NCBI GenBank assembly: GCA_031263195.1
Contig: JAISGD010000007.1
Span: 1-44,024 of the forward strand
DNA length: 44,024 bases
Source of the DNA: Campylobacteraceae bacterium
GTDB taxonomy: Bacteria; Campylobacterota; Campylobacteria; Campylobacterales; Campylobacteraceae
Reading direction: 5' to 3'
Below the pieces are notes generated by a model. The model had not been told where the DNA came from, ran no database searches, and was given only the letters and a program-made list of their open reading frames with translations. This document shows positions 672 through 18,374 of this stretch, in pieces (the stretch's first letter is position 1; each line of letters starts with the position of its first letter). The position numbers and the translations under genes are program-made.

Positions 672-1682
672 GTGAAATATATAAATGATAACAAGCTTGA
701 AAATAAAACTGTTTTGATTACGGGCGCGGCTGGTTTTATAGGGAGTAATTTGGCTTTTTATTTTCAAAAAAATTACCCAAAAACACGCGTTGTGGCATTT
801 GATATATTTAGAACGGATGAACGATTTAGTAATGGGAATTTAAAAAGTTTCGGACATTTTAAAAATTTGATAGGCTTTAAGGGTGAAATAATAAGCGGTG
901 ACATCACAAAGAAAGAAGATCTGTCACGTCTTGAAGCTTATGACATTGACTATATATTTCACGAAGCCGCTATCTCAGACACAACCGTTTTAGATCAAGA
1001 GATAATGATAAAAACCAATGTAAACGCTTTTGTTGATTTGCTGGAATTTGCCAAAAAGAAAAACGCTAAGATGATATACGCCTCTTCGGGAGCCACTTAC
1101 GGCGATACGCCAAGTCTGCAAACAGTAGGAGTAGAAAATCCGCAAAACGTGTATGGGTTCAGTAAACTCGCTATGGATAATATCTCAAGAGAATACATAA
1201 AAAGATTTGGTATGAGCATAGTCGGACTTAGATATTTTAACGTCTACGGCAAAAACGAATATTTTAAAGAAAAAACCGCCTCTATGGTATTGCAACTTGG
1301 GCTTCAGATATTAAGCGGCAAAGCTCCGCGTCTGTTTTTTAACTCCAATAAGATTTTACGCGACTTTGTCTACATAGACGATATTGTCCAAGCGAATATT
1401 CTATCTATGGGCGCAAATGTTAGCGGCGTTTACAATGTAGGCACAAGCGAACCGCGCTCTTTTCAAGATATAGCTGATATTTTGCAAAAAGAGCTCGGGA
1501 CGGACTATAAAACAGATTACTTTGAAAATCCGTATAAAGCCTATCAAACGCATACACAAGCAAATATCACCTCTACATGTAAAGAACTTGGATATGAGCC
1601 TAAATTTTCATTAGAAGATGGCATAAGAGATTATGCATCTGAAATCAAAAGAATATATGAGAGCGAAGTAAAAAATGTATAA
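672..1682 (+). CDS. hldD: ADP-L-glycero-D-manno-heptose 6-epimerase
   Basis: Cytoplasmic SDR-family epimerase that converts ADP-D-glycero- to ADP-L-glycero-manno-heptose, the donor for LPS inner-core heptose. An N-terminal NAD(P)-binding Rossmann motif GAAGFIG is at residues 18-24, and the YxxxK catalytic pair is Y161/K165 (YGFSK). The length of 336 aa is normal for RfaD/HldD. The start is GTG at 672, supported by AAGG at 661-664. The 3' end overlaps hldE by 8 nt and gmhA follows, so the three consecutive ADP-heptose steps appear to be one translationally coupled operon. Confidence 0.93.
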   Translation: MKYINDNKLENKTVLITGAAGFIGSNLAFYFQKNYPKTRVVAFDIFRTDERFSNGNLKSFGHFKNLIGFKGEIISGDITKKEDLSRLEAYDIDYIFHEAAISDTTVLDQEIMIKTNVNAFVDLLEFAKKKNAKMIYASSGATYGDTPSLQTVGVENPQNVYGFSKLAMDNISREYIKRFGMSIVGLRYFNVYGKNEYFKEKTASMVLQLGLQILSGKAPRLFFNSNKILRDFVYIDDIVQANILSMGANVSGVYNVGTSEPRSFQDIADILQKELGTDYKTDYFENPYKAYQTHTQANITSTCKELGYEPKFSLEDGIRDYASEIKRIYESEVKNV

Positions 1683-3093
1683 GATATCAAAAATTCCGAA
1701 AATTTTAGTGATAGGCGACTTGATGATAGACCACTATCTTTGGGGAAGCTGCGAGCGAATCTCCCCTGAAGCGCCTGTGCAAGTAGTGGATATAAAAAAT
1801 GAGACATCGGCGCTTGGAGGAGCGGGAAACGTTATATCAAACCTCGTAAGTCTTGGTGCAAGCGTTGATGTAGCGAGCGTTGTGGGTGACGATGAAAACA
1901 GAAATGATCTAATAAGCATGTTAAAAAAACTAGGCGTAGGAACTGGCATGCTGCTTTTTGAAAAGGAACGAAAAACTGCCAAAAAAAGTAGAGTTATGGC
2001 GTCTCACCAACAAATTATAAGATACGATTTGGAGTCAAAAAACGATATAAGCTTCGAAAGTCAGGAAAAATTGCTAAAAGCCGTGAACGACACTATTTTA
2101 AAGTACGATTTGATATTGATATCAGATTATGCCAAAGGCGTTTTAACTAAAGAGTTTACGAGCAATATCATAAAAATAGCAAAAGAAAAAGGCAAATTAA
2201 CGCTTATTGACCCAAAAGGCGAGGATTATTCAAAATATAAAGGCGCTACCCTTATCACGCCGAATAAAAAAGAGGCGTCAATAGCCGGCAAAATAAAAAT
2301 AACGGACGATAAATCACTAAAAGAAGTCGGCGAAAAATTAAAAAAAGAGTTGGGATTAGATTTTGTCATTATAACTTTGTCTGAAGATGGAATGGCTATC
2401 TTTGATGAAAATATGACAAAAATACCCACAATAGCAAGAGAAGTTTATGATGTGACAGGTGCAGGAGATACTGTTTTGGCGGCTTTGGGGGTAGGATTGG
2501 GCGTAGGATTTGACATTTATAAAGCCGTATTATTCGCAACTTCCGCCGCCGCCGTTGTCGTGGCAAAACTTGGAAGCGCAACGGCGTCCGTAGACGAGAT
2601 AAACAGATACGAAAATCAAAAGCTTCATTTTGACTATGAGAGTAAGATATTAAACGTAAACGAACTTCAAAAAACGCTCGAACATAAAGACAAAAAAACA
2701 AAGATAGTCTTTACAAACGGTTGTTTTGACATACTACATGTAGGACATGTAAAATATCTGCAAAACGCTAAAAATTTAGGCTCTTTGCTTATCGTCGGAT
2801 TAAATTCGGACGCGAGCGTTAAAAGACTGAAAGGCGACGATAGACCGATAAATAACGAACAAGATAGAGCTGTTGTGCTCTCTTCTTTGGGATTTGTCGA
2901 TTATGTGGTAATTTTTGAAGAGGATACCCCGTACGAATTAATACGAAAATTAAAGCCTGATATTTTAGTAAAAGGAGCTGATTACAAAGGTAAAGAGGTT
3001 GTTGGGAGCGACTTGGTGAAAGAGGTTGTTTTAATAGATTTTATAGAGAACAAAAGCACTACAAATATAATCAAAAGGATACAAAAACAATGA
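1675..3093 (+). CDS. hldE: Bifunctional heptose-7-phosphate kinase / heptose-1-phosphate adenylyltransferase
   Basis: Two-domain enzyme of ADP-heptose synthesis. Residues about 1-320 are a ribokinase-family kinase, with the substrate-binding GGAGN near residue 48 and the catalytic DVTGAGDT near 260. Residues about 343-472 are a nucleotidyltransferase with the HxGH motif ([11 protein letters not shown]). Total length 472 aa matches HldE/RfaE. The ATG at 1675 lies inside the end of hldD, and the stop overlaps the gmhA start as ATGA, which suggests translational coupling. No gmhB phosphatase gene is seen in the window. Confidence 0.95.
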
Positions 3094-3656
3094 TGAAGAT
3101 GATAAGAAGCGAGATAAGTTCGCATATAAAAACCGCACAGCAAACTTTAGAGGATTTACAAAGCTACATTTACACGGCTTGCGTCATCGCGACGGATACC
3201 ATAGCCAAAGGAAATAAAATATTGATTTTCGGAAACGGCGGAAGCGCGGCTGACGCACAACACATAGCGGCAGAACTTGTCGGACGGTATAAAACTAAGC
3301 GGAAGGGCTTAAGCGCTATCGCGCTTACAACGGATACTTCAGCGCTTACGGCTATAGGAAATGATTTCGGATATGAGAGTATTTTTGAAAGACAAGTTGA
3401 AGCTTTAGCAAGAGAGGGCGATTTACTTATAGGTATCTCGACAAGCGGCACAAGCGCAAATGTGGTGCGAGCGTTAAAATTGGGACGTGAGATAGGTTGT
3501 CGATGTGTAGGGCTTAGCGGAAAAAACGGCGGAGTTATGGATGAAGTTTGCGATATAAATATAGTGATACCGTCCTCGGATACACCGCGTATCCAAGAAA
3601 TGCATATAATGATAGGACACATTATCTGCCAAGCGATAGACAGCGTCAATGGTTAG
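3090..3656 (+). CDS. gmhA: Sedoheptulose-7-phosphate isomerase
   Basis: First enzyme of ADP-heptose synthesis: sedoheptulose 7-phosphate to D-glycero-D-manno-heptose 7-phosphate. It has a SIS domain with the [19 protein letters not shown] sugar-phosphate binding segment and [10 protein letters not shown], typical of GmhA, and a normal length of 188 aa. The start is an ATG overlapping the hldE stop by 4 nt; another ATG follows directly. The stop overlaps the end of the convergent wecA-like gene by 4 nt, so there is no room for a terminator between the two operons. Confidence 0.94.
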
Positions 3657-4654
3657 CGTTTTCGCAATTTAATAAGTCTGAAATATATAAAATTGTACAG
3701 TAAAACAAACAGTAAAACTGTAGCTATTAGTAGTTTTGTGTGCCACATGTATAATAATGGGATAAATATAAACGGCGCGGCTATCATCCATACTAAAATA
3801 GAAGTTTTGTAATTATTTTTAGTAATCTTTCTAAAGATAACAGTATGTAGATGCATTTTGTCCGGATACAGAGGCGATAACCCTTTTCTTTTTCTGCGAT
3901 ATGCTGAAAAAAGTACTTCATACACAGGGTATATCATGATACAAAGTACAAACCATGATGAAATTTGTTCATGTTTTTGGCTAAGCAGTATCGCTATCTC
4001 TACAATACAAAAACCTAAAAAATAGGCTCCTCCATCTCCCAAAAAAATTCTGCCTTTCGGAAAATTTAAAACAAAAAAGCCCAAACTCGCGCAAAGTACA
4101 ATCAAACTTATATATAAAAGCTGCATATCATCTACTATATAAGCGCAAAATGAGAGCGATATCAAAACCATAATGGAAATGCCTGACGCCAATCCGTTAA
4201 AGCCATCTATAATATTTATGGCGTTGATTGAGCCCACAACGGCAAATACTGTAAACAGGATGCTTATTATGAGCGGAAATTGCCATGATATACCGATATC
4301 AACTATAATGGCGTTAAATAAAATCATACCTAAAACAGCAGACAAAGATTGTATCAAAAGTCTTTTTTTTGGAGAGAGAGTTCCTTTTAAATCTTCAATC
4401 AATCCTGCTGCAAATGTTATAAATCCGGCAAGCAAAAAAAACAGCGTGAACGGAAAATAGGATGCACATATTAAAATGCTGCCGCAAAATATTCCAAGTC
4501 CGCCGGCTCTTGATGTGGGTGTATTGTGGACTTTTTGCGGTTTTGAGGAGTCGTAAGAATCTAAAAAAATGCTGTGTTTTTTTGTAAAATATATAATGCA
4601 AAGACACGTTATAAATGAAACAGTAAAAGCAATTAACGGTGCAATGGGGTACAT
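3653..4654 (-). CDS. Undecaprenyl-phosphate sugar-1-phosphate transferase (WecA/MraY family)
   Basis: Integral inner-membrane enzyme of 333 aa with roughly ten hydrophobic helices. Family motifs are visible in order: the N-terminal [18 protein letters not shown] segment, the cytoplasmic loop [13 protein letters not shown] with the catalytic Asp, and [13 protein letters not shown]. These place it in the polyprenyl-phosphate HexNAc-1-P transferase family (WecA, WbpL, MraY). In the context of the pglB/pglK operon it probably starts lipid-linked glycan assembly, the job done by the unrelated PglC in C. jejuni. The sugar it transfers cannot be read from sequence. It lies 44 nt downstream of galE on the same strand. 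Confidence 0.85.
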
Positions 4655-5679: not shown

Positions 5680-7617
5680 TTTTTTATCCTTTTTCGATAC
5701 TATTGCCAATAAAATACATGCTGTAAAAAACAGAATCTTATCTCTTAATCTTCTTCTGCATTGATTAGCATGAAAAGCTAATTTTACCATATCAAGTCTG
5801 CTGAACTTTGACCACATAATAACAAACCGGTTATTTTTCAACCCCGTGAGATTTGCTATTTTAAGTGATTGTCCGAATGCATTATCAAAAAGAACGGCTT
5901 TTACTCTATTTTTAAATGCTGCAAATCCATTATTGGCGCCCATTTGATTATTTTCATGCTGTCTATACCTCATACTGCAAAAATCGTCGATATACCATTT
6001 AAATCCGTTTGCACGAGCAAATGCGTAACAAAACCAGTCGTGAGACCATAAATCGCTGACGTTATTAAAATTTTTAATAACACATTTTTTAAATTCCTGA
6101 GCTAATTTTTTTGCCATTACATATGTACATCCTGCTCCTGCTGCCTCAAAAAGATAATCATATTTTACTTGCGGTTGTGATTTGACAATCATTTTTTCTT
6201 TACCGCTCTCCCAAAATGCTAAAACATTACTTGAATACCCGAAACATTTTTGTTCGTCGATCATCTGTACGGCGCGGCTTAATTTGTTCGGATACCATAT
6301 ATCGTCTTGGTCGGCAAAGGAGATAAAGTCATAATGCGAAAAATCAACATCTCTTATAAGCCGCATAAAATTTTTTGTAGCATTCCCAAACCGTCCGTCA
6401 TCATTGAGTAAAATTACGGAACGATTGTTTTTATATAATTTCTCCAGATACTCTCTTGTATTATCCGTAGAAGTGTCTATACTAATAAAAATAGTTGTAT
6501 TAACATCCTCTTGTTTCAGTATAGTATTAATCTGTTCTTTGATGTATTTTTTGCCGTTATACGCGGCAAGTAAGATGGCTATCGAAGGTGAGCTTTTGTC
6601 GATTGTTTTTGTTTTGATATTATCAAAAATATTTGCGATATATTCCGCCTTTATAGCTTTCATGCATATATACTCAAACGATTTTCCAATACATTTAGGT
6701 TTGTTATAACACGGATGATATTTGCATTTGTACCCCATCTCAACAACTTTTGTATTGGGAGGCGCCCAAATTTTTGCATCATTTGCCCCATTAAGCATTA
6801 TTTTATAGGGAACATTTTTATAATACGCCGCGTGTATGGAAAAACTGTCAAGCCCTATAAAAACCTTTACTTTCTCAAGTTTTTTCAGAAATACTTGAAT
6901 CTCTTCAACAACTATCTCTACTTTATCAGCGATTTTGATAAAAGCTGCTTCAACCTCAGCTTTTTCGTTTTTCGTGCAAAAAATTAAGATTTTATCATTT
7001 TTATATATTCTTTCAATCAATTCCACCCAGTTTTTATATTCCCAAAATTTACACTTTACACTTGCTGCAGGATGAATCGCTGTTTTTGTTCGATTATTGC
7101 ATGTTGGCAATATTTTAGCAGCTATTTTTGCTTGCAAGATATTTTCGGCTATATATTTTTGTATATCGTATATATTGATAATATTATTTGGGATATTTAT
7201 GTATTTATCAACCAAAAAACTGCATCCCGGTTTAATTAAATTAGTAAAATGGTGCTTTTTGTCAAAACGAACGCTCATATTTGTTTTACCGCCCGAGAAC
7301 CAACCTATAGCGTTTTCTCTAAAATCGCCGATATTATTTAAAACTATATCATATTCATTTTTTTTAAAAGAAGCAGTTTTTGCTAAAAATCTAAAATGTG
7401 AAATTAACGACAATTTAGCCGTCCATCCTCTACTTGTAAGCAGACACTCATTTGAAAAAACATGATTTACGTGGATATTATTATAAAAAAACGGTTCAAA
7501 TTGCGGACGCGTAAAAATATCAATCTGTATATTGCTGTCGCTTGATAAATATTCAATCAATTTCAGTGCTATAATGCAATCACCGTAACTTCTAAAAGAT
7601 AGTAATAAAATTTTCAC
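4699..7617 (-). CDS. GT9-GT2 double glycosyltransferase, in frame with galE (no stop between)
   Basis: A single 972-codon frame. Residues about 1-325 resemble GT9 ADP-heptose:LPS heptosyltransferases (N-terminal LLLSFRSYGDCIIALKLIEY, later FIGLDSFSIHAAYY). Residues about 340-640 are a GT2 glycosyltransferase (SIAILLAAYNGKKYI, then the metal-binding FADQDDIWYPNKL). Residues 647-972 are GalE. The start is GTG at 7617, overlapping the stop of the upstream GT9 gene as GTGA. The GT2 part ends with a basic/hydrophobic tail just where GalE begins, as if only its stop codon had been lost. The likely natural product is the ~646-aa GT9-GT2 protein; whether the triple fusion is made is unknown. Confidence 0.75.
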   Translation of the reverse strand: MKILLLSFRSYGDCIIALKLIEYLSSDSNIQIDIFTRPQFEPFFYNNIHVNHVFSNECLLTSRGWTAKLSLISHFRFLAKTASFKKNEYDIVLNNIGDFRENAIGWFSGGKTNMSVRFDKKHHFTNLIKPGCSFLVDKYINIPNNIINIYDIQKYIAENILQAKIAAKILPTCNNRTKTAIHPAASVKCKFWEYKNWVELIERIYKNDKILIFCTKNEKAEVEAAFIKIADKVEIVVEEIQVFLKKLEKVKVFIGLDSFSIHAAYYKNVPYKIMLNGANDAKIWAPPNTKVVEMGYKCKYHPCYNKPKCIGKSFEYICMKAIKAEYIANIFDNIKTKTIDKSSPSIAILLAAYNGKKYIKEQINTILKQEDVNTTIFISIDTSTDNTREYLEKLYKNNRSVILLNDDGRFGNATKNFMRLIRDVDFSHYDFISFADQDDIWYPNKLSRAVQMIDEQKCFGYSSNVLAFWESGKEKMIVKSQPQVKYDYLFEAAGAGCTYVMAKKLAQEFKKCVIKNFNNVSDLWSHDWFCYAFARANGFKWYIDDFCSMRYRQHENNQMGANNGFAAFKNRVKAVLFDNAFGQSLKIANLTGLKNNRFVIMWSKFSRLDMVKLAFHANQCRRRLRDKILFFTACILLAIVSKKDKKMKVCVVGGAGYIGSHTVYELIDAGHEVVVVDNLSTGLKEAVHKEALFYEGDITDFASLDKIVADENRKKPFDVVMHFAAKIVVPESVKNPSLYYYNNVEGVRTLLDVMVKHNIKNIIFSSTAAVYGEAKDGVCSEESETKPINPYGETKLTSEKMIGWFANAYGMNYCIFRYFNVAGAHKTLEIGLLRDNLTHIVPVTIQTALGIREKLTVFGADYDTPDGTCIRDYVHVSDIAYAHVLGMKHIVEKNVSEIINLGSNQGFSVKNIISEVEKHYPVNYEYGDRREGDPAKLIASNERAKEILGWMPKRELSDIILSDLEFRKRHKK

Positions 7618-8660
7618 TGTTTTAACTCTGATACATTAATAATTTTTACATTTGCGGCATTTAACGGAGAAAATTTTTCAGAGGGATAAACATAAAAAGA
7701 TACTGTTTTAACGCCTGTCATACCGGCTAAATGAGCTGCTAGACTTTCTACGGTATATATCATTTTAGCTTGACACATCAAAAGATATAACTGCCGAACG
7801 TTTAATAGGCCAAACAATGGTATTGTATTTTCGCGATTGATTGTTAATTTATCAAGCAATACTTGTTCGTTCTTAAGGCCGGTAAAAACTATTTTGCAGC
7901 TATTGTCTATTTTTTTTATGATATTGTCCCACTTGCGGCTATCCAAAAGCCTGTTTTTATCCCCACTTCCTAAATGTATCAGTACAAATTCACCACTCAT
8001 GATATTGTTATCTTTCATGATATTTTTAATGCTATTTTGATCATCATTTGTAGTATAAAGTTCGCATTTTAATTTACCTATGTTTTCTATACTTATGGCT
8101 TTGCACAATGATATAAAGCTATCTGCCTCATGAACGATGCTGCTGCAGTCAGCTTCCAAATCAAGCAGTACACCTCTACCTCTTGTGCCGAAGCCTACCG
8201 AATATGTTGGTTTCATAAACCAGTGTAACGGTATAAGATTTCCCTTACTGTATCTTGCGTAAATAGATAGATCGTAATGATTTATATTTATTGCTTTTAA
8301 TGCTTTGTATGATGTACTGAAAAATTCTGCTATTTTACTAAAAATCGATATTTTTTTTCTATTTAAAATATAACTGTTTATAATAAAAATATTATTTATA
8401 TACGGGTTATTTTCTAAAATCGGAGCAGACCACTCCCCGCATACTACATCTATTTTGGTCTCGTTATAGCAGTGTTTTATACAAGGGAGTATTGCTGTCA
8501 TCATTAGCATATCTCCCATATGGTCGGGTTTGATGATCAATATCCTATGAATATTTTTAGGAAAAATCCTCTTTTTTTTGGGCAATAGAGATAAAAAAAT
8601 GTCGAATATGTAAAATATGATATATTTTATTTTACTGTTTGTTTCATATTTCTTCGACAC
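7614..8660 (-). CDS. Glycosyltransferase family 9 (heptosyltransferase-like)
   Basis: A 348-aa cytoplasmic or membrane-associated GT-B enzyme. The N-terminal IKPDHMGDMLMMTAIL and the C-terminal VESLAAHLAGMTGVKTVSFY segments are typical of GT9 (WaaC/WaaF-like), which use ADP-heptose as donor. The adjacent convergent hldD-hldE-gmhA operon makes that donor, so transfer of heptose to LPS core or to the protein glycan is plausible, but acceptor and donor are inferred. The stop overlaps the next gene's start by 4 nt. The start is ATG at 8660, with AAAAGGAT immediately upstream. Confidence 0.82.
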   Translation of the reverse strand: MSKKYETNSKIKYIIFYIFDIFLSLLPKKKRIFPKNIHRILIIKPDHMGDMLMMTAILPCIKHCYNETKIDVVCGEWSAPILENNPYINNIFIINSYILNRKKISIFSKIAEFFSTSYKALKAININHYDLSIYARYSKGNLIPLHWFMKPTYSVGFGTRGRGVLLDLEADCSSIVHEADSFISLCKAISIENIGKLKCELYTTNDDQNSIKNIMKDNNIMSGEFVLIHLGSGDKNRLLDSRKWDNIIKKIDNSCKIVFTGLKNEQVLLDKLTINRENTIPLFGLLNVRQLYLLMCQAKMIYTVESLAAHLAGMTGVKTVSFYVYPSEKFSPLNAANVKIINVSELKQ

Positions 8661-8749
8661 TTTTATATCCTTTTCACAATATAGGACTACTATAAGTTAC
8701 TTTATAAATTATTTCAAGACCATCGCAAATAGTTTTTTCTTAAGATGTA

Positions 8750-9625
8750 TCACTGTATAGTCAGGATTTGCTTCTTTAATGAGTTTTTCAAGTACTTGCG
8801 GATCATCAGGCAAATGATATGTGCAAATAGCAAGTTTCGGAGCAAAATTTTTAAGCACCCAAGCCCCCCCCTCAGCATATCTCTCTCAGCTCCTTCTATA
8901 TCTGCTTTTATAAAATCTATTTTTGTTAGTTTGTTTTCCTGTGCAAATTTATCCAATGTAGTAAGCTGTATCATCTCCGTGACTGTATTTGCAGATACTT
9001 CATTTAATAACGAAATAGTATTACCGCCACTGTTATGTTCATTGATATGGATCAGTTTTTCGCATTCGCTGTCACTCAAGCCTTTTAGAATAGGATAAAT
9101 AGCGTTGTTATTTAATTTTGCTGTTTTTTGTAAAAGTTTAAATGTTGAGCTTGTAGGTTCAAACGCATAAGCAATAGCTTCTTTTGAGGCTGCATAGGCG
9201 CTGAAATCTCCTATCCATGCTCCGGCATCTATAACCGTATCACCCTTTTTTACAGTTACGTCAAACTTTCCATCGGTATAGCCGTATGGCCCCTCGGGCA
9301 TATATTTATCAAGTTCTTCAACGATAGATTTATCATAGTTATCATTAAGATAGCAGCTGATAAAAAACGTATCTTCAAAAATGGTGCTTAAAATGACCAT
9401 ATCATTTATATTATCTGAAATATCAGGAAGTTTTGCGCCGTTAAAATCAAAATAACGGCTATTGTCATCTGTTTTAAGCCACTTTTGCATCTGTTTTGAA
9501 ATAGCTTTAGCATATCCATTGTGCCCAAATAGCTTTTTCATTATATACCTGTAAATAGCTTGCCGAAAAGCATTATAATACTTTGACATAAAATAGATTC
9601 TTTTAAGTCTATAATATAATTTCAT
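8750..9625 (-). CDS. FkbM-family methyltransferase, out of frame at a poly-G tract
   Basis: SAM-dependent methyltransferase, probably O-methylating a sugar of the glycan made by this operon. The SAM site DTVIDAGAWIGDFSAYAAS and the later FIKADIEGAERDML are canonical FkbM. The start ATG at 9625 has AAGGGGAT upstream. As written, the frame runs through eight G (minus strand) after ERDML and ends with a divergent tail at 8750. With one extra G the frame continues as AWVLKNFAPKLAICTYHLPD and stops at 8709, giving the usual FkbM C-terminus. The gene is therefore best read as a phase-variable locus caught OFF, with full extent 8709-9625; a sequencing error in the tract is the alternative. Confidence 0.85.
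   Translation of the reverse strand: MKLYYRLKRIYFMSKYYNAFRQAIYRYIMKKLFGHNGYAKAISKQMQKWLKTDDNSRYFDFNGAKLPDISDNINDMVILSTIFEDTFFISCYLNDNYDKSIVEELDKYMPEGPYGYTDGKFDVTVKKGDTVIDAGAWIGDFSAYAASKEAIAYAFEPTSSTFKLLQKTAKLNNNAIYPILKGLSDSECEKLIHINEHNSGGNTISLLNEVSANTVTEMIQLTTLDKFAQENKLTKIDFIKADIEGAERDMLRGGLGCLKILLRNLLFAHIICLMIRKYLKNSLKKQILTIQ
8864..8871 (-). repeat. Poly-G tract, 8 nt, probable phase-variation switch
   Basis: Eight C on the plus strand (G on the coding strand), the only such tract in this AT-rich window. G tracts of 8-10 nt in surface-glycan genes are the classic slipped-strand switches of Campylobacter and Helicobacter. Nine G (or six) would put the methyltransferase gene in frame; seven would stop it at once. 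Confidence 0.85.
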
Positions 9626-9692: not shown

Positions 9693-11375
9693 TTATAATC
9701 TGATATTTCTATCACACTTTTCCACCGTACTTAATCTGTGAGCGATAACTATCAATGTTTTATCTTTGGAAATATTATATATTTCATCCATTATCTTACT
9801 CTCGGTTTCATTATCCAAAGCTGACGTTGCTTCGTCTAATACTAAAATTTCGGGATTACTATATAAGGCTCTAGCTATGCCAATTCTTTGCTTTTGTCCA
9901 CCGCTAAGCTGTACTCCGCGTTCCCCAACTATAGTATTTAAACCGTCCTTCTCACTTAAAAAATCCCAAATATTTGCTGTTTTCAGTACATGTATAGCTT
10001 TTTTCTCATCAACATCCGAGCCAAACATTACATTCTCACCAACTGTACCGTCAAACAGATAGATATCTTGCGGAATATAACCGATTTTTGCTCTCCAAGA
10101 GCGAATATTTTGCAAAGTTACAGGCGTACCGTCTATCAAAATCTCTCCGCTTGAAGGATAATTTATACCCATTATCAAATCAACCAAGGTGGATTTTCCT
10201 CTGCCGCTTTTACCCGTAAAAGCCACTTTCTCACCCTTTTTTATCTCTAAAGAGACATTGTCTATAACTTTCGTTTTATCATTATACGAAAAATCAACAT
10301 TCTTTAAAACAATCGAATTATTAAAGCTTATATTTTCATTTCCATACTCTTCGGTATAGTTATTTAAATCTTTATGTACAATATCCAATGACTTTTTAAA
10401 AAACATGATTTGGTTATAATTTCCAAGCACTCTTGAAATCCCAGGAAGCATTCTGTAAAGCGCTAACGCGTACATTGAGATAACGGGAATAATCATATCC
10501 GGACTCTCATATCTTAGCAAAAGATACAAAACAGCCGCCAAAAGCGTTGAAAAGCCTATGGATTCTATAATATATCTTGGAGCAAATGATATTGTATAAG
10601 AATTTATATATGATTTTGAAAAATCGCTGCTCTCTTGAAAAAAAGTTTGCGTTAACTCTTTTTCATTGCCTTTTAATTTTAAAATTTTAAAATTTCCAAA
10701 CGACGCGGTTATAAGCTTTAAAAAATTCTCTTGTGATTTGCTTCGTCTTTCTCCTTGCACGCTTGCCATTTTATGAATAATCTTTATAACAAAAAATACG
10801 CTTACTCCCATCACTAAAGTTAATCCCAACGTCATCTTAAATCTTACATACAGTAAGAGTATATAAAAAATAACGATTGTAAAAATTTCAGAACATAACA
10901 GTAAAATATTTTGTATTAAAAAACTTAAATTCAGAGTATCGCTGGATACTATTTTTATGATGGTAGAAGAGTTGTATTTTACGATATTTTTATATGGCAT
11001 ATTAAGATAATTTTGAAACAGCTTATTTGCAAATTTACTGAAATTATCAAACGAAAATTTATTTAAAAAATATGTATAAAGGAGCGAGTACATGCCTCTA
11101 AAAAGATAAAAAATCACAAGAAAAACGCCAAAATATAAGATAAAGCTCTCTTTATTGTTAAATTCAAAAAAATCGTAAGCAACTTTATAATATCCGCTAT
11201 CTATGATACCAGGATTTGATGCCATAGAGATAAAAGGCATAATGGCGGAAATACTAACCATTTCAAGTATAGAAAATAAAATAGTGCAAAAAAGCATAAT
11301 AAGCAGTAGTATCTTGGTTTTTTTATCTAAAATAACTCTTAGCTTTTTAATTATGCCTATTTTATCTTTTTTCAT
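9693..11375 (-). CDS. pglK: PglK-type ABC transporter / lipid-linked oligosaccharide flippase
   Basis: Half-transporter of 560 aa. Residues about 1-330 form six membrane helices, and residues about 345-560 form the ATPase domain with Walker [10 protein letters not shown], the signature [16 protein letters not shown] and Walker [13 protein letters not shown]. Sequence and domain length match C. jejuni PglK/WlaB closely, including the ISKDKT...IAHRLST end. The family flips undecaprenyl-linked oligosaccharide from cytoplasm to periplasm for PglB. The protein stops shortly after the H-loop (CDRNIRL), about ten residues shorter than I recall for PglK. Its 5' end overlaps fcl by 14 nt. Confidence 0.88.
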
Positions 11376-12321
11376 TAAAAATTTTATATACCTCTTTTAT
11401 GCCCTCTTCCAGTGAAGTTTTATGCTTCCAACCTAAACTCAAGAGCTTTGTCGTGTCTAACAGTTTTCGCATAGTGCCATCGGGCTTTGTCGTGTCAAAT
11501 CTGAACTCTCCTTCAAATCCGACAACTTTTTTAATTATATTCGCCAACTCTTGTATCGTTAAATCCTCTCCCGTTCCTATATTAATATGCGTATTTCGTA
11601 TTTCGTTTTTATCTTTGATCAAGTCTTGAAAATTGATATTTTCCATAATAAACACGCAAGCATCCGCCATATCTTCGCTATACAAAAACTCTCTTTTTGG
11701 AGTGCCGCTACCCCAAATCTCTACATATTTCAAGTTGTTTATTTTGGCTTCGTGTATTTTTCTAAGTAGTGCCGGCAATACATGTGAGGTATTTAAATCA
11801 AAATTGTCATTTGGTCCATAAAGATTTGTTGGCATAACGGATATAAAATTGGTGCTGTATTGCAAATTATAACTCTCGCACATTTTTATTCCGGCGATTT
11901 TTGCTATAGCATAAGGTTCGTTTGTATACTCCAAAGGACTTGTCAAAAGAATCTCTTCATTTATGGGCTGAGGCGCGTTTTTAGGATAAATGCAGCTTGA
12001 ACCTAAAAACAGCAACTTTTTTATACCGTTTAAATAACTTTGGTGAATAATATTATTTTGAATTTGTAAATTCTCATATATAAAATCTGCTCTATACGTA
12101 TTGTTCGCTAAGATACCGCCAACTTTAGCGGCGGCTAAAAAAACATATTCGGGTTTTTCTTTTGCAAAAAAATCTCTAACTTCTTGCTGCTTAGTCAAAT
12201 CCAACTCGTTGTGAGTTTTTACAACTATATTTTTATACCCTTTTTCAAGCAGATTTTTAACTAGCGCGCTTCCGACTAAACCTCTATGTCCGGCTACATA
12301 AATCTTACTGTTTTTATCCAT
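11362..12321 (-). CDS. fcl: GDP-L-fucose synthase
   Basis: Bifunctional 3,5-epimerase/4-reductase turning GDP-4-keto-6-deoxymannose into GDP-L-fucose. It is an SDR protein of 319 aa with the NADP motif [10 protein letters not shown] near the N-terminus, [14 protein letters not shown], and the YAIAK catalytic Tyr/Lys. The motif [12 protein letters not shown] is characteristic of Fcl/WcaG. It lies directly downstream of gmd (2 nt gap), the previous step of the pathway, and overlaps pglK, so GDP-fucose or a derivative is likely used in the glycan that PglK flips. Confidence 0.93.
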
Positions 12322-12323
12322 TA

Positions 12324-13439
12324 TTATTCAAAATACCTCAAAGTTTTAAAACCTTTATCTTGTAGATACAAATCTTTTCTGGCTAAGTTTATATCGCTTT
12401 CTATCATCTCTTTTATTATATCTTTCAAGGTATATTCCGGTACCCAACCCAGTTTTTCTTTTGCTTTTGTAGGATCTCCTATAAGTAAATCCACTTCCGT
12501 AGGTCTGAAATATCTCTCATCTACCGCTACAACTTCTTTGCCTATTTGCAATTTATAATCAGGATTCGCACAGGATTTTACAAGCGCTTTTTCGTTTAAT
12601 CCATCTCCTATAAACTCCAATTTAATCCCAACCTCTCTGAAAGCAAGTCTTACGAACTCTCTGACCTCTGTTGTAACTCCTGTGGCTATTACCCAATCTT
12701 CAGCTTTATCGGCTTGTAAAATCATCCACATCATACGAATATAATCTTTTGCATGCCCCCAATCTCTTTTTGAGGATAAATTTCCAAGATACAGTTTATC
12801 TTGAAGTCCAAGCGCGATTTTACTAACGGCTCTTGTTATTTTTCTTGTTACAAAAGTCTCTCCTCTTATCGGCGACTCGTGATTAAATAAAATTCCATTG
12901 CAAGCGTATATATTATAAGCTTCCCTGTAATTAACGGTTATCCAATACGCGTACATTTTTGCCACAGCGTAAGGCGAACGAGGATAAAACGGCGTTGTTT
13001 CGCTTTGCGGAATCTCTTGAACTTTTCCGAAAAGTTCGCTTGTGCTTGCTTGATAAATTTTTGTCTTTTTAGTAAGACCAAGTAACCTTATAGCTTCTAA
13101 AAGTCTTAATGTGCCTATACCATCGGCATTTACAGTATATTCCGGCGTTTCAAAGCTTACATGTACATGACTCATAGCGGCAAGATTATAGATTTCATCG
13201 GGTTGAATCTCTTGTATTATCCTTGTTAGATTCATACTATCCGTCATATCTCCATAATGGAGAATAAAATTTAATCTTTTTTCGTGCGGATCCTGATAAA
13301 GATGGTCTATTCTGTCCGTATTAAATAAAGATGCTCTTCTTTTAATACCATGAACTTCATAACCTTTATTTAGTAAAAATTCCGCCAAATATGCTCCGTC
13401 TTGTCCTGTAACTCCTGTAATTAACGCTACTTTTGACAT
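12324..13439 (-). CDS. gmd: GDP-mannose 4,6-dehydratase
   Basis: Converts GDP-D-mannose to GDP-4-keto-6-deoxy-D-mannose, the branch point to GDP-fucose. Motifs are [15 protein letters not shown] at the N-terminus, the [12 protein letters not shown] segment, STSELFG, and YAVAK (YxxxK), with RPTEVD in the C-terminal part. Length 371 aa is typical. It lies between manC (6 nt upstream) and fcl in pathway order, which supports one co-transcribed GDP-fucose module. Confidence 0.95.
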
Positions 13440-13445
13440 ATTTTA

Positions 13446-14792
13446 TCACCTTTTGAAATCATCTTCTATCCTTATAATATCATCTTCGCCTGTATATTTT
13501 CCAACTTGCGCCTCTATTAAAACGAGCGGAATTTTACCGGGATTTTCCAATCTATGAATATCGCCCGATCTTATATATGTAGACTCGTTTTCTCTAACCA
13601 AAAAAACTTTATCGTTTATAGTAACTTTGGCTGTTCCGCTCACAACTATCCAATGCTCGTTTCTATGAAAATGTTTTTGCAAACTTAGTCGTTTGTTTGG
13701 CTTAACCTCTATTTTTTTTATCTTGTATCCATCGCCGACTTCCAAAACTTCATAAGTTCCCCAAGGTCTATTGGCTTTTACATGTAACGAGGTTAAATCT
13801 TTTTTTTCACTTTTTTGGAGCGATACGACGATATCTTTAACTTTTTGAGAACTTCCCTTTTTTGACACCAAAAGAGCGTCTTTCGTATCTATAATTATCA
13901 AATCATTAACGTCAATAAGAGCCACCTCTTTATTTGCCAAAACAAAATTATTTGACACATCGCTTGTTAATTCGCGAGATAAAGCTTCAAAACTTCCCAC
14001 ATCGCTCCAATCAATATCGCTTGGAACAACAGCGACATTTGAGCTTTTCTCCATTAGAGCATAATCTATACTAACGTCATCTATACGCATCATACTTTGC
14101 ATATCTATGCGAATAAGTTTTTCAAAACAACCTGTTTTTGCGTCTATTTTCGCATTATTAAACGCTTCTAAAGACGCGTTATAAATATTGGGAGCGTGTT
14201 CTTTCAACTCTTTTAGAAAAGTTTTAACCTTAAAGCAAAACATACCGCTGTTCCAATAATAATTACAGCTTTTTATATACTCTTCGGCGGTTTTAATATC
14301 CGGCTTTTCTTTAAAACTCTTTACATGTAAGCCGTCAGCTTCAATATATCCAAAACCTGTTTCGCAATAAGTGGGCTTAATGCCAAAAGTCACCAAAAAA
14401 CCCTCTTCTGCCAAATTCCCAGCTTTTTGCAACGCTTCTTTATAACTTTCCTCATTTTTTATCAAATGGTCGCTTGGCGTCACAAGTACGATATCATTTT
14501 CGTCAAGTTCAAAAGACGCCAACGCTATAGCAGCGGTTGTGTTTCTTCCTATGGGTTCCAAAATACAACTGCTGTTATTTATGTTTAACTCCTCAAGTTG
14601 ATCCATAGCCAAAAAATATTGCTCTAAATTTGAAACTATGATAGAGTTTTCACAAAATGAAGCGTTTCGCTCAACTGTTAATTGAAACAGGGATTTATCA
14701 TCAAAAAGTTTTAGAAATTGCTTTGGCATTAACTTGCGAGATAATGGCCAAAGTCTTGTGCCGCTGCCGCCTGATAAAATAATATTTGTCAT
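13446..14792 (-). CDS. manC: Mannose-1-phosphate guanylyltransferase / mannose-6-phosphate isomerase
   Basis: Type II phosphomannose isomerase/GDP-mannose pyrophosphorylase of 448 aa. The N-terminal nucleotidyltransferase domain has the signature LSGGSGTRLWPLSRKLMPKQ and the FKEKPD segment. The C-terminal cupin isomerase domain has RPWGTYEVLEVG and LQKHFHRNEHWIVVSGTA. It supplies GDP-mannose from the Man-1-P made by the adjacent manB product. The start overlaps the manB stop by 4 nt (ATGA). Confidence 0.95.
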   Translation of the reverse strand: MTNIILSGGSGTRLWPLSRKLMPKQFLKLFDDKSLFQLTVERNASFCENSIIVSNLEQYFLAMDQLEELNINNSSCILEPIGRNTTAAIALASFELDENDIVLVTPSDHLIKNEESYKEALQKAGNLAEEGFLVTFGIKPTYCETGFGYIEADGLHVKSFKEKPDIKTAEEYIKSCNYYWNSGMFCFKVKTFLKELKEHAPNIYNASLEAFNNAKIDAKTGCFEKLIRIDMQSMMRIDDVSIDYALMEKSSNVAVVPSDIDWSDVGSFEALSRELTSDVSNNFVLANKEVALIDVNDLIIIDTKDALLVSKKGSSQKVKDIVVSLQKSEKKDLTSLHVKANRPWGTYEVLEVGDGYKIKKIEVKPNKRLSLQKHFHRNEHWIVVSGTAKVTINDKVFLVRENESTYIRSGDIHRLENPGKIPLVLIEAQVGKYTGEDDIIRIEDDFKR

Positions 14793-16159
14793 AAATCGTC
14801 TACTATTTTTGTTACCGCTTCTTGCATCGCGTTTTGATACTCTCGCATTTTTTCTTCACTTTTAGCTTCAAAACGCGCTACAAGCACGGGCGTTGTATTT
14901 GAAGCTCTTATCAGCCCCCAGCCATCTTGAAATATAACTCTCACGCCGTCTATCGTGATAATATTTTCTATTTTAGGGAAATCTTTTGGCGGATTTTGCA
15001 AAAAGAGTTTGAGTTTTTCTATAATACGAAATTTTTCACTCTCTTTGGTTGGAATTTTCAGTTCATCCGTTGAATACATTTTAGGTAAATAGGATAACTC
15101 TTCATCCAAATCAATCCCATTTTGCAACAATTCAAGCGTTCTTAACATCGCGTAAATCGCGTCGTCATATCCAAAATACCTGTCGTTAAAAAATATGTGT
15201 CCGCTAACTTCGGCTGCGATATCTATTTTAGTCTCGTGCATTTTCATCTTAAGATTGCTGTGTCCCGTTTTGTACATGTAAGCATGACCTCTTTTATTTA
15301 TCTCGTCGTACATCACTTGCGAACATTTGACTTCGCCTAAAATTTGCGGATTTTTAAGAATTTTTGAGTAGAAAATAACAAGTTCATCGCCTTTGAAATT
15401 ATTTTTTTGCGTCAAAACGGCAATTCTATCCGCGTCTCCGTCAAACGCAAATCCTATATCGTAACTTCCGGAAGTGAGCTCTTTTTTAATATCTTTAAGA
15501 TTTTTCTCTTCTGTGGGATCTGGATGATGATTTGGAAAGGTGCCGTCCGGTTCCTCAAAAAGAATCTTAGCGTTTAGATTTAACTGTTTAACAAGTTCTG
15601 TGACAACAACTCCAGCCGCGCCATTTCCGCAATCTATAACAATTTTAGTTTTTAAATTTTTTAAATGCTTAAAGTGTTCGACGAGAAAATTTATATACTC
15701 TGTTTTAGTATCAATCTTATCGCAAGTCATATCGCCCCAAATTTTTAACTTCTCGCACTCTTTGATTACTTCAAGACCCAACTTTTCTATATCCGCGCCA
15801 AAAAATGGTAAGCGATTCATCGTAATCTTAAAACCGTTGTATTCGGGCGGATTGTGAGAACCTGTTATCATAATGGTCGCGTCTACTCTGTCTTCGCCTT
15901 CAAGAAATCCAGCGAAATAGTTGCACGGCGTTGGTACAAGCCCCATATTTTTTACTTTCACGTCTGCGTAAGTAAGCCCTGCGACAAGATAACTGAAAAG
16001 CTTTTTTGAATGAGTTCTGGCGTCGTATCCAACGCCAACTTGAGTGCCGATTTGCAAAATCTTTTTCCCAAGAAAATAACCTATTGCTTTTACGCTTTTT
16101 TCATTCAAGTCTTTTTCAAAAATGCCTCTTATATCATACTCTCTAAAAATGTGCTTCAT
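14789..16159 (-). CDS. manB: Phosphomannomutase (phosphohexomutase family)
   Basis: Interconverts mannose 6- and 1-phosphate, and in AlgC-like members also glucose phosphates. The catalytic phosphoserine loop TGSHNPPEYNGFK lies around residue 100, and the metal site is FAFDGDADRI. Length 456 aa fits the bacterial PMM/PGM class. It starts 1 nt after the pglB stop and overlaps manC, so it belongs to the same transcription unit. A dual PMM/PGM activity cannot be excluded. Confidence 0.93.
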   Translation of the reverse strand: MKHIFREYDIRGIFEKDLNEKSVKAIGYFLGKKILQIGTQVGVGYDARTHSKKLFSYLVAGLTYADVKVKNMGLVPTPCNYFAGFLEGEDRVDATIMITGSHNPPEYNGFKITMNRLPFFGADIEKLGLEVIKECEKLKIWGDMTCDKIDTKTEYINFLVEHFKHLKNLKTKIVIDCGNGAAGVVVTELVKQLNLNAKILFEEPDGTFPNHHPDPTEEKNLKDIKKELTSGSYDIGFAFDGDADRIAVLTQKNNFKGDELVIFYSKILKNPQILGEVKCSQVMYDEINKRGHAYMYKTGHSNLKMKMHETKIDIAAEVSGHIFFNDRYFGYDDAIYAMLRTLELLQNGIDLDEELSYLPKMYSTDELKIPTKESEKFRIIEKLKLFLQNPPKDFPKIENIITIDGVRVIFQDGWGLIRASNTTPVLVARFEAKSEEKMREYQNAMQEAVTKIVDDL

Positions 16160-16160
16160 G

Positions 16161-18374
16161 CTATATCTTTAATTTATATATTTTAGCGTATGGGTTACCC
16201 GAAATGAACTCAAAGAGATTTTCGTCATACTCCTCCAGATAAAAGAGTTTAAAATAGACAGAGTTATACATGGCTTCATCTATAACTAAAAAGGCATTGT
16301 AAGTACGTAAATATACGAGCGAATATACTCCGTTAAAATGCATATTTTGGATATTTTTATATAGCGCGCCTTTATCATCATAACCTATAACTACGAATCT
16401 TTTAAGCGGTATGCTATTGTTGTTCGGCGGTGGAGTGATTAGTTTCCCTTGCTGCTTGTCGATATAAAAATAACTCTTTCCTCTGCTTCTATCTAAAAAT
16501 AATGTTGCGCTTGTATCCTCGAAATTTCTTGATATATAGAAAAACGGTTGTCTTGGTTCGCCGTTCATCAAATCAAGATGGCTGAAATTCATAATAGTAG
16601 GATAAATATCAAGCATTCTATACGGTAGATAAAAGTAGATATCTCTTGTTTTCTCCGGCAATTGTATATCTGTTTTTAATGAGAGTACAAAATCGTTTGA
16701 ATCCGTAAAACTGTACTCGTTCATTATCCAAGCGACATTGTTGTTTGGTATGGACTGGTTATTTTTGATAACTTCGGCTCTTTTTTCGGTATATTCCACA
16801 TCAAGTCTTGCCATTTGCGCTGCGCTTTTTTGGTCGTGAGAAAGTGCAAAACTAACGGGAAAATTAACATCACCGTCATGTTTTCCACCATCGACGAGCG
16901 TTTTTACATCGGCATAATAACGTATAGGATATCCGTAGTCCCACCATGTAATAACATAATCCTCTCTACTGACATTCCCCCCAAAATTCTCTATCAAGCC
17001 CACTTCTTCTCTATTAAAAACAGAGTATGATTTATAATCCCACGCCACTTTTACAAGGGGATACAAACTCAAAACAGTCATCACGCACACAAATGCCAGT
17101 GAGGTGAAAAAAGCGGTTTTTTTATTGTTCACATATGCATTTATAAGTTCTGTGATTCTTAGGATAAAAAATCCCATTCCAAATGCACCTACAGGTATAG
17201 CGTACATTACAAAACGAAGTCCTCCGCTTAATGATAAAAGCCCAAGTCCTAAAAGCGGCAGCATAATAAGCATAACAGGCTGCCTTAAGCAGAGCCAGAC
17301 ATAACCTATGATGCTAATAACGAACAACAACGCACCTCCGCTCATTTTTGAGGCTATCTCATATATATCGATAGTTTTTGCCTCTACTATTGTTTGAGCT
17401 ACAGAATAGAAGTGCAACGCCCCGTCCGCTACAGTGCCGTCTCTTTGAAATATAAAGACATTAAGTCTATACATTATAGGGTTTATTCCCCCTGCTAAAA
17501 AGAAAATAATACCGCACGCTATCAAAATGTAGAGACTAAATCTATTTAACTCTTCTCTTAGCGAAATAAGATAAACAATTATTACGCCGCCAAATCTAAA
17601 TGCAAACGGCAAATCTACCATACCGATAAGCATAATAGATAGTAACTGATAATGGAAAATGCTCTTGCGTTCATAGATTAGCGTATATAACAGTACAAGA
17701 GCCAAAAACGCGCACTCCAGCGAATAACTTTGCGGGTAACACCATCTATATACTGCTATCTCTATACCTGTCAGCAATATATATGACTTCGTTTTTGTTT
17801 TAAGAGCCAGAGTTAGCGACCAAACAAGCAGCATTGGAAAAAAGAGATTAAAAATATCAGTATCGTAGTATCCCAAAACCGTACGTGAATAGTAGCTTGT
17901 GCCTACACTTGCGATTAATGCGGCGATAAAACCAGCTAACAGTAGATGTAGCCGTTTACCTATCAAAATAAACGGTATTACCAGTAAAGAACCTGCGAAT
18001 GCAGGCATATAAAACATAATCGTCTCTAATGAAAATGGTAATACATTGTAAAGTGCCTGCGTTATTATTGGCAATGATTGGTCTACAGGAGAGAGGTCAT
18101 TTTCCTGATGGCAATTTTGCTGATAGTACTCGCCGGCACTTGCACTATCTTTGTCGCAAAAAATTAAATCTCTCGCACCCTCCGCCCAATAATACGAATC
18201 ATTGGTTGTTACCATAAATTCATCATTCCACTTAAAAGCGCTGCCGTCTATTGTATTGGTAGCCCAGTAAGCCCAAGTTAACCTTACACTCACGGAAAAG
18301 AGAAAAGCAAAAGCGATGAGAGCAAATATATATATATTTTTTGTTGTTTCGGCAGGTTCCATGGAGAATTTCAT
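16161..18374 (-). CDS. pglB: Oligosaccharyltransferase PglB (STT3 family)
   Basis: Inner-membrane enzyme that transfers a lipid-linked glycan to asparagine in periplasmic proteins. It has about 13 membrane helices, then a periplasmic C-terminal domain. Key sites: metal/acceptor Asp in TTNDSYYWAEGARD (D59), the second motif GYYDTDIFN (D171/D173), the TIxE motif TIVE with E331, and WWDYG at 477-481. Length 737 aa is close to the 713 aa of C. jejuni. By position relative to E331, the residue equivalent to the acceptor-selecting Arg (R331 in C. lari) is K343. The start ATG at 18374 has AAGGAT upstream. It is the first gene of the long glycan operon. Confidence 0.95.
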   Translation of the reverse strand: MKFSMEPAETTKNIYIFALIAFAFLFSVSVRLTWAYWATNTIDGSAFKWNDEFMVTTNDSYYWAEGARDLIFCDKDSASAGEYYQQNCHQENDLSPVDQSLPIITQALYNVLPFSLETIMFYMPAFAGSLLVIPFILIGKRLHLLLAGFIAALIASVGTSYYSRTVLGYYDTDIFNLFFPMLLVWSLTLALKTKTKSYILLTGIEIAVYRWCYPQSYSLECAFLALVLLYTLIYERKSIFHYQLLSIMLIGMVDLPFAFRFGGVIIVYLISLREELNRFSLYILIACGIIFFLAGGINPIMYRLNVFIFQRDGTVADGALHFYSVAQTIVEAKTIDIYEIASKMSGGALLFVISIIGYVWLCLRQPVMLIMLPLLGLGLLSLSGGLRFVMYAIPVGAFGMGFFILRITELINAYVNNKKTAFFTSLAFVCVMTVLSLYPLVKVAWDYKSYSVFNREEVGLIENFGGNVSREDYVITWWDYGYPIRYYADVKTLVDGGKHDGDVNFPVSFALSHDQKSAAQMARLDVEYTEKRAEVIKNNQSIPNNNVAWIMNEYSFTDSNDFVLSLKTDIQLPEKTRDIYFYLPYRMLDIYPTIMNFSHLDLMNGEPRQPFFYISRNFEDTSATLFLDRSRGKSYFYIDKQQGKLITPPPNNNSIPLKRFVVIGYDDKGALYKNIQNMHFNGVYSLVYLRTYNAFLVIDEAMYNSVYFKLFYLEEYDENLFEFISGNPYAKIYKLKI

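Follow-up and report, generated by a model that had tools for sequence, protein, structure and literature searches.

Poly-G contingency genes are well known in Campylobacter. Phase variation through G tracts has been studied mainly in vertebrate-associated bacteria, where the usual explanation is immune evasion; insects have no adaptive immunity. The pgl locus of C. jejuni carries a PglC-type initiator.

The PhasomeIt catalogue used a cut-off of seven G and gives variation as recorded for every tract of at least 8 G in C. jejuni NCTC 11168; it also cautions that short tracts may mutate too slowly (PMC6321876). Phase-variable structures in C. jejuni include the capsule heptose O-methyl and MeOPN modifications (PMC9561416) and the flagellar glycan, through Cj1295 (PMC3068675). 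Its N-glycan also phase-varies, by way of a GAT repeat in pglI (Nothaft 2021, as related in PMC9561416). Here we analyse an FkbM-family methyltransferase gene (fkbM) in a pgl locus of a Campylobacteraceae bacterium, the reading frame of which is interrupted at a run of eight G. The window referred to throughout is the whole 44,024-nucleotide stretch of DNA that was analysed.

The pgl locus and its variable cassette

The minus strand of the window carries, in order, pglB, manB, manC, gmd, fcl, pglK, fkbM, a GT9 gene, a GT9-GT2-GalE fusion and a WecA/MraY-type initiator gene, and this cluster faces hldD-hldE-gmhA (Table 1). The profile matches of these neighbours back the pgl operon context that an earlier note on this DNA had assigned to fkbM. 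PglB and PglK are both encoded in the cluster, as in pgl loci, with scores that do not reach the NCBIfam equivalog cut-offs for either; in place of a PglC-type initiator there is one of the WecA/MraY type.

Table 1. Positions of the pgl locus genes, the G tract and the two fkbM frames in the window
Feature	Position	Strand	Evidence
hldD-hldE-gmhA, ADP-heptose synthesis, convergent neighbour	672..3656	+	TIGR02197, TIGR02198/02199, TIGR00441, over cut-off
WecA/MraY-type initiating phosphoglycosyltransferase	3653..4654	-	PF00953 2e-32
GT9-GT2-GalE fusion, 972 aa	4699..7617	-	PF01075, PF00535, TIGR01179
GT9 (heptosyltransferase-like) glycosyltransferase	7614..8660	-	PF01075
Conserved FkbM C-terminal segment, other frame	8709..8861	-	congener tails 86-88% identical; invariant residues
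FkbM-family methyltransferase as assembled, 291 aa, last ~38 residues foreign	8750..9625	-	profiles; AlphaFold tail of low confidence
G8 tract	8864..8871	-	sequence; comparison with about 55 relatives
pglK, flippase of lipid-linked glycan	9693..11375	-	NF050066 1e-165, under curated cut-off; 82-95% identity in congeners
fcl, GDP-L-fucose synthase	11362..12321	-	NF047922 6e-147
gmd, GDP-mannose 4,6-dehydratase	12324..13439	-	TIGR01472 1e-178
manC, mannose-1-phosphate guanylyltransferase	13446..14792	-	TIGR01479 1e-155
manB, phosphomannomutase/phosphoglucomutase	14789..16159	-	
pglB, oligosaccharyltransferase	16161..18374	-	STT3-PglB core 6e-53; NF050801

In a profile search, the genome contained neither a PF02397 initiator nor a Wzy_C ligase, and control genomes matched both. 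Because these are absent, PglB is the only visible user of the lipid-linked glycan made by the cluster, and this gene content supports the N-glycan as the product that would be decorated. The PF13425 ligase profile matched neither this genome nor the control genomes and is hence uninformative. Candidates for the methylated sugar are fucose, to judge from gmd and fcl, or heptose, to judge from the hld genes and GT9. Co-occurrence was tried as a guide to fucose as the methyl target and was rejected, since a GT11 fucosyltransferase was found in only 3 of 80 related loci, all Campylobacterota, and the association is thus not a general one. A GT11 gene adjoins fkbM in congeners G007 and G008.

As far as their contigs reach, the congener clusters examined contain the same framework genes at 69-98% identity (PglB, 63-70%), and between pglK and galE they have a cassette that varies. 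One of the cassette genes is fkbM, found in 3 of the 14 genomes of the genus; in the nearest congener, G004, a GT11 fucosyltransferase gene takes its place. GalE is stand-alone in the congeners, and in G013 a GT2 that is 83% identical to the GT2 of the fusion is a separate ORF. PglB is 63% and manB 95% identical to G004 (window 16161-18374 versus L208 10-1176), and this divergence beside a conserved manB suggests that pglB may have been exchanged by recombination.

Directly before fkbM in G007 and G008 lies a ~65-80 bp piece of the pglK 3′ end (L156 5863-5940 and L155 13306-13380), with a complete pglK one or two genes further upstream. This piece looks like a recombination scar, a putative trace of cassette shuffling in the N-glycan locus, and it suggests that in these congeners, too, fkbM once stood directly behind pglK, the order found in the window. 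Before the G007 scar comes another fragment, ~58 bp from the start of a GT11 gene.

A G8 tract separates fkbM from its conserved C-terminus

The fkbM product belongs to the FkbM family, as the earlier note had it, matching PF05050 with 55.3 bits (cut-off 22.7; 1e-14) and TIGR01444 with 78.8 bits (cut-off 37.7; 5e-22). In the assembled frame, the C-terminal core is incomplete: the Pfam match ends at 134 of 173, compared with 160 in the congeners, and the core becomes complete only if two frames are joined across a G tract. This tract (C8 on the plus strand) is the longest G/C run in the window and falls within the codons after DIEGAERDML, where the minus-strand letters read ...GAGAGAGATATGCTGA-GGGGGGGG-CTTGGGTGC.... 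Sequence and frame reading agree with the earlier account of eight G after ERDMLR on the coding strand, followed by a foreign tail (RGGLGCLKILLRNLLF...) and a stop that ends at 8750. Past the tract, a second frame reads WVLKNFAPKLAICTYHLPDDPQVLEKLIKEANPDYTVIHLKKKLFAMVLK for 50 codons to a stop at 8709, and the third frame reaches a stop within four codons. The hypothesis of a poly-G switch hung in part on the second-frame tail aligning with FkbM proteins, and it survived this check: the tail does align, and relatives, congener tails and invariant residues all support it as the true C-terminus of the family.

A search among 60 related genomes found fkbM in two congeners, G007 and G008, with 54% identity up to about residue 262 of the assembled frame. 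A second match, in another frame, runs from about residue 242-252 to the end. Its overlap with the foreign tail arises because the query was the assembled protein of the window, and congener DNA read in the same wrong frame resembles that tail. Both congener genes are single open frames of about 310 aa that have KGAAW and no G run at the site, and read DIEGAERDMLKGAAWVLKNFAPKLAICTYHLPDDPQVLEKLI.... Relative to them, the window has one base fewer across the tract, and its other-frame tail is 88% and 86% identical to their tails, with dN/dS of about 0.09 and 0.17.

The tract site was then compared over 80 related loci with a motif pattern. In the ~57 readable loci, congeners included, no G run longer than five was found at this site, and all stay in the homologous frame over it (L099 stops further on and L095 ends with its contig). 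A tract shared with relatives is therefore ruled out and, because about 55 further relatives have no such run, the tract is new in the lineage of the window. With no relative carrying a tract at the site, comparison gives no hint that the tract has been selected for.

No part of the family is better conserved than the segment that follows the site, and it is this segment that aligns with 2py6, a solved FkbM structure. Eleven of its residues are invariant in 35 sequences (G008 numbering: P267, C272, T273, Y274, H275, D278, D279, N291, Y294, K302 and A305). As read from its sequence, fkbM is otherwise intact, with a conserved tail, no second lesion and no decay. AlphaFold gave the intact G008 homologue a methyltransferase fold (pLDDT 90; best solved match 2py6) in which strands 268-272, 295-298 and 302-306 all lie past the tract position. 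In the model of the assembled window protein, the tail has a pLDDT of 47-58 and there are no strands beyond residue 241. Given this lost structure and the shortened profile match, the assembled form would likely lose activity.

Tract counts were obtained by pattern searches and set against a first-order Markov model built from the window. One run of at least G8 was seen in the window versus 0.07 expected, and 13 in the genome versus about 2.8; for runs of at least G9, the genome has 7 versus 0.5 expected. The locus thus has a coding-sequence homopolymer above chance (G8), at which a change in length would toggle an intact and a broken frame, with the conserved tail in the other frame and single-frame genes in the congeners. 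A lone G8 somewhere in a genome is not rare. What is rare is a G8 that breaks an otherwise intact gene at its best-conserved segment, in a genome with several such genes.

G tracts in the genome and the genus

Seven of the 13 genome tracts of at least G8 sit in other conserved genes, all in frame (G8-G9), and homopolymer miscalling is therefore not general in the assembly. These genes are ftsW, a DJ-1/PfpI gene, virB4, recJ, two TonB receptors and an autotransporter-like gene; the identity of ftsW was checked against Pfam, and the other six were named from sequence reading. The interrupted tract genes are fkbM, a C5 DNA methyltransferase and an Rhs core/tip junction, which are kinds known to phase-vary or diversify. 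In the C5 DNA methyltransferase (L035; G000:C25, 70901-70909), the two halves lie in two frames flanking a G9, which makes it a candidate phase-variable gene. Two G14 tracts, for which about 1e-4 were expected, are both in frame (L016, G000:C14; L025, G000:C16), in genes for a Citrate_ly_lig-domain protein and a second, weakly FkbM-like methyltransferase.

The Rhs-type core end (TEN_YD-shell, a weak match) occupies 1159-1709 on the minus strand of L032 (G000:C18, near 69075) and is followed by a G8. Past this tract, the other frame matches a Serum amyloid A domain (PF00277, 2.7e-27), the frames having been searched separately. One possible reading of this arrangement is a bacterial Rhs protein with a serum-amyloid-A-like tip at a poly-G switch.

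Tracts of at least G9 occur in 13 of the 14 genomes of the genus, at 0-16 per genome. Among the tracts checked, the affected genes include type III Mod genes and a type ISP restriction-modification gene split around a G14, as well as TonB receptors, a polysaccharide pyruvyltransferase, a GT1 glycosyltransferase and genes with a YrbL or an OmpA domain; other tracts are intergenic or at contig ends. At one homologous site (DDAQRAV..MGGG..NFAFHTDKEQNPWWEL) the tract is G9, G12 or G14 depending on species or paralogue, with some copies open and some interrupted, and the Citrate_ly_lig-domain gene has G14 in the genome of the window and G9 in G012. Compared between genomes, these sequences show that tract length turns over within the genus, at sites other than fkbM. 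No G tracts were found in the pgl-cluster cassettes of the congeners. On G008:C38 (L154, 19500-27500), four tracts (G10, G13, G14 and G9) lie within 5 kb. Two of these fall in paralogues that encode a galactose-binding-like domain, of which one is open and the other interrupted.

Host lineage and gene pool

The best named relatives are Campylobacteraceae MAG records, JAITAB and JAISXY. Campylobacterota MAGs have been described from termite guts (Arora et al. 2022; PMC9137090) and, going by this and by the record series, these MAGs appear to come from termite guts. Relatives of fkbM with 50-65% identity are found in Bacteroidota, Spirochaetota, Elusimicrobiota, Fibrobacterota, Planctomycetota, Margulisbacteria (Termititenax), Synergistota and Holosporales, for the most part in that record series, which suggests an fkbM gene pool common to this habitat. 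The FkbM subfamily with the tail APKLAICTYHLPDDP (L040-L119) spans at least eight phyla, mostly as MAGs of one apparently termite-gut series. In the fkbM tree, the window, G007 and G008 fall inside a mixed, mostly Bacteroidota clade with moderate support. Independent transfer of fkbM into the genus was considered and set aside, as a single Campylobacterota clade was not rejected (p-AU 0.46).

A probable phase-variable switch and its alternatives

We consider it probable that fkbM is a translational poly-G contingency locus, assembled in its OFF state, and that it encodes a sugar methyltransferase acting on the lipid-linked N-glycan. DNA polymerase slippage in the G tract would alter its length, and in one length class the ribosome would read the intact FkbM protein (ON). 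In the assembled class, the Rossmann-like core would end early, a foreign tail standing in for three strands, two helices and the 11 invariant residues, and the protein should be inactive. Methylation of a sugar of the glycan transferred by PglB would then be confined to ON cells. The tract, its frames, the homology, the intact homologues, the genomic context and the poly-G tracts across the genus are observed; reversible switching, loss of activity, N-glycan methylation and the identity of the sugar are inferred. One assembly of the species was compared, and the tract length is that of this assembly. Support for the switch comes from the excess of poly-G tracts in this genome and across the genus, their place in classic phase-variable kinds of gene, and homologous sites that differ in length between species. 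The N-glycan context draws on pglB and pglK in the cluster, on the conservation of the gene cassette in congeners, on the pglK scars and on the lack of PF02397 and Wzy_C. Against the switch counts the length of the tract, since G8 is among the shortest poly-G lengths known to vary. The earlier claim is partly supported: phase variation by poly-G stands as the best explanation in the light of the genus-wide poly-G gene set, and under it the tract length would vary within the population and the N-glycan would carry a methyl group in some cells.

A fixed frameshift, in which fkbM is a recent pseudogene of this lineage and the G run merely an indel spot without a useful switching rate, is unlikely, but it is the strongest competitor. 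It would fit the short tract, the OFF form being the only one seen, and the patchy distribution of a gene (3/14) that is absent in the nearest congener and so seemingly dispensable. However, a decaying gene accounts poorly for a break placed exactly at the only long G run in the window, with the tail still conserved and no further lesion, and elsewhere in the genus genes with tracts look phase-variable. An assembly or sequencing error, with the real fkbM in frame, is considerably less probable still: homopolymers are the commonest site of indel errors, but none of the seven G8-G9 tracts in other conserved genes breaks its frame, and the broken tract genes are of the kinds expected to vary. Recoding by transcriptional slippage or a -1 ribosomal shift, which would give some full-length enzyme and a low rather than an off state, is very improbable. 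In its favour, one G re-read on the run would lead exactly into the conserved tail frame. Against it, relatives need no such event and no unusual RNA structure lies downstream (z-score -0.24); programmed frameshifting was rejected for this absence of a stimulatory structure.

Comparison with known systems

A literature search that covered few subscription papers turned up neither a description of a G tract within a PglB locus nor one of phase variation among termite-gut bacteria. This kind of switch has precedents in Campylobacter; what is new is its target, an N-glycan methyltransferase, and the host lineage. Tentatively, and with rather less confidence than in the switch itself, we suggest that this may be the first case of an N-linked protein glycan under a poly-G switch, and that it occurs in insect-gut symbionts whose phase-variable genes form a set of the Campylobacter type. 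If so, a switch in the PglB locus would turn the N-glycan, usually regarded as constant, into a variable structure, and its purpose may differ from immune escape in vertebrates. As the G tracts of this apparently termite-gut genus lie in DNA methyltransferases, TonB receptors and glycan genes, phages and microbial neighbours offer a testable other driver, and a switch on a methyltransferase common to gut bacteria of many phyla may serve phage or microbe recognition or gut residence.

Like genes of the Campylobacter phasome (PMC6321876), fkbM has a G run in its coding sequence and an out-of-frame state, the targets in the genome are surface-glycan and DNA methyltransferase genes, and the bacterial family is the same; in contrast, the tract here is known from one length, at the short end, and the genus consists of apparently termite-gut rather than vertebrate MAGs. 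Within the FkbM family (PF05050/TIGR01444; 2py6), the protein shares the domain, the DIEGAE motif and the C-terminal segment aligned with 2py6, whereas the assembled frame is without that segment. As in the modification of the C. jejuni capsule and flagella, homopolymeric tracts affect genes for small decorating groups on surface sugars, although here the locus is that of an N-glycan and not of capsule or flagellin O-glycan. On the available account of pglI, both that gene and, by our proposal, fkbM belong to a PglB N-glycan pathway and carry a repeat as the switch, but pglI is a glucosyltransferase gene in which a GAT codon repeat changes one Asp, whereas here a G run would shift the frame of a methyltransferase.
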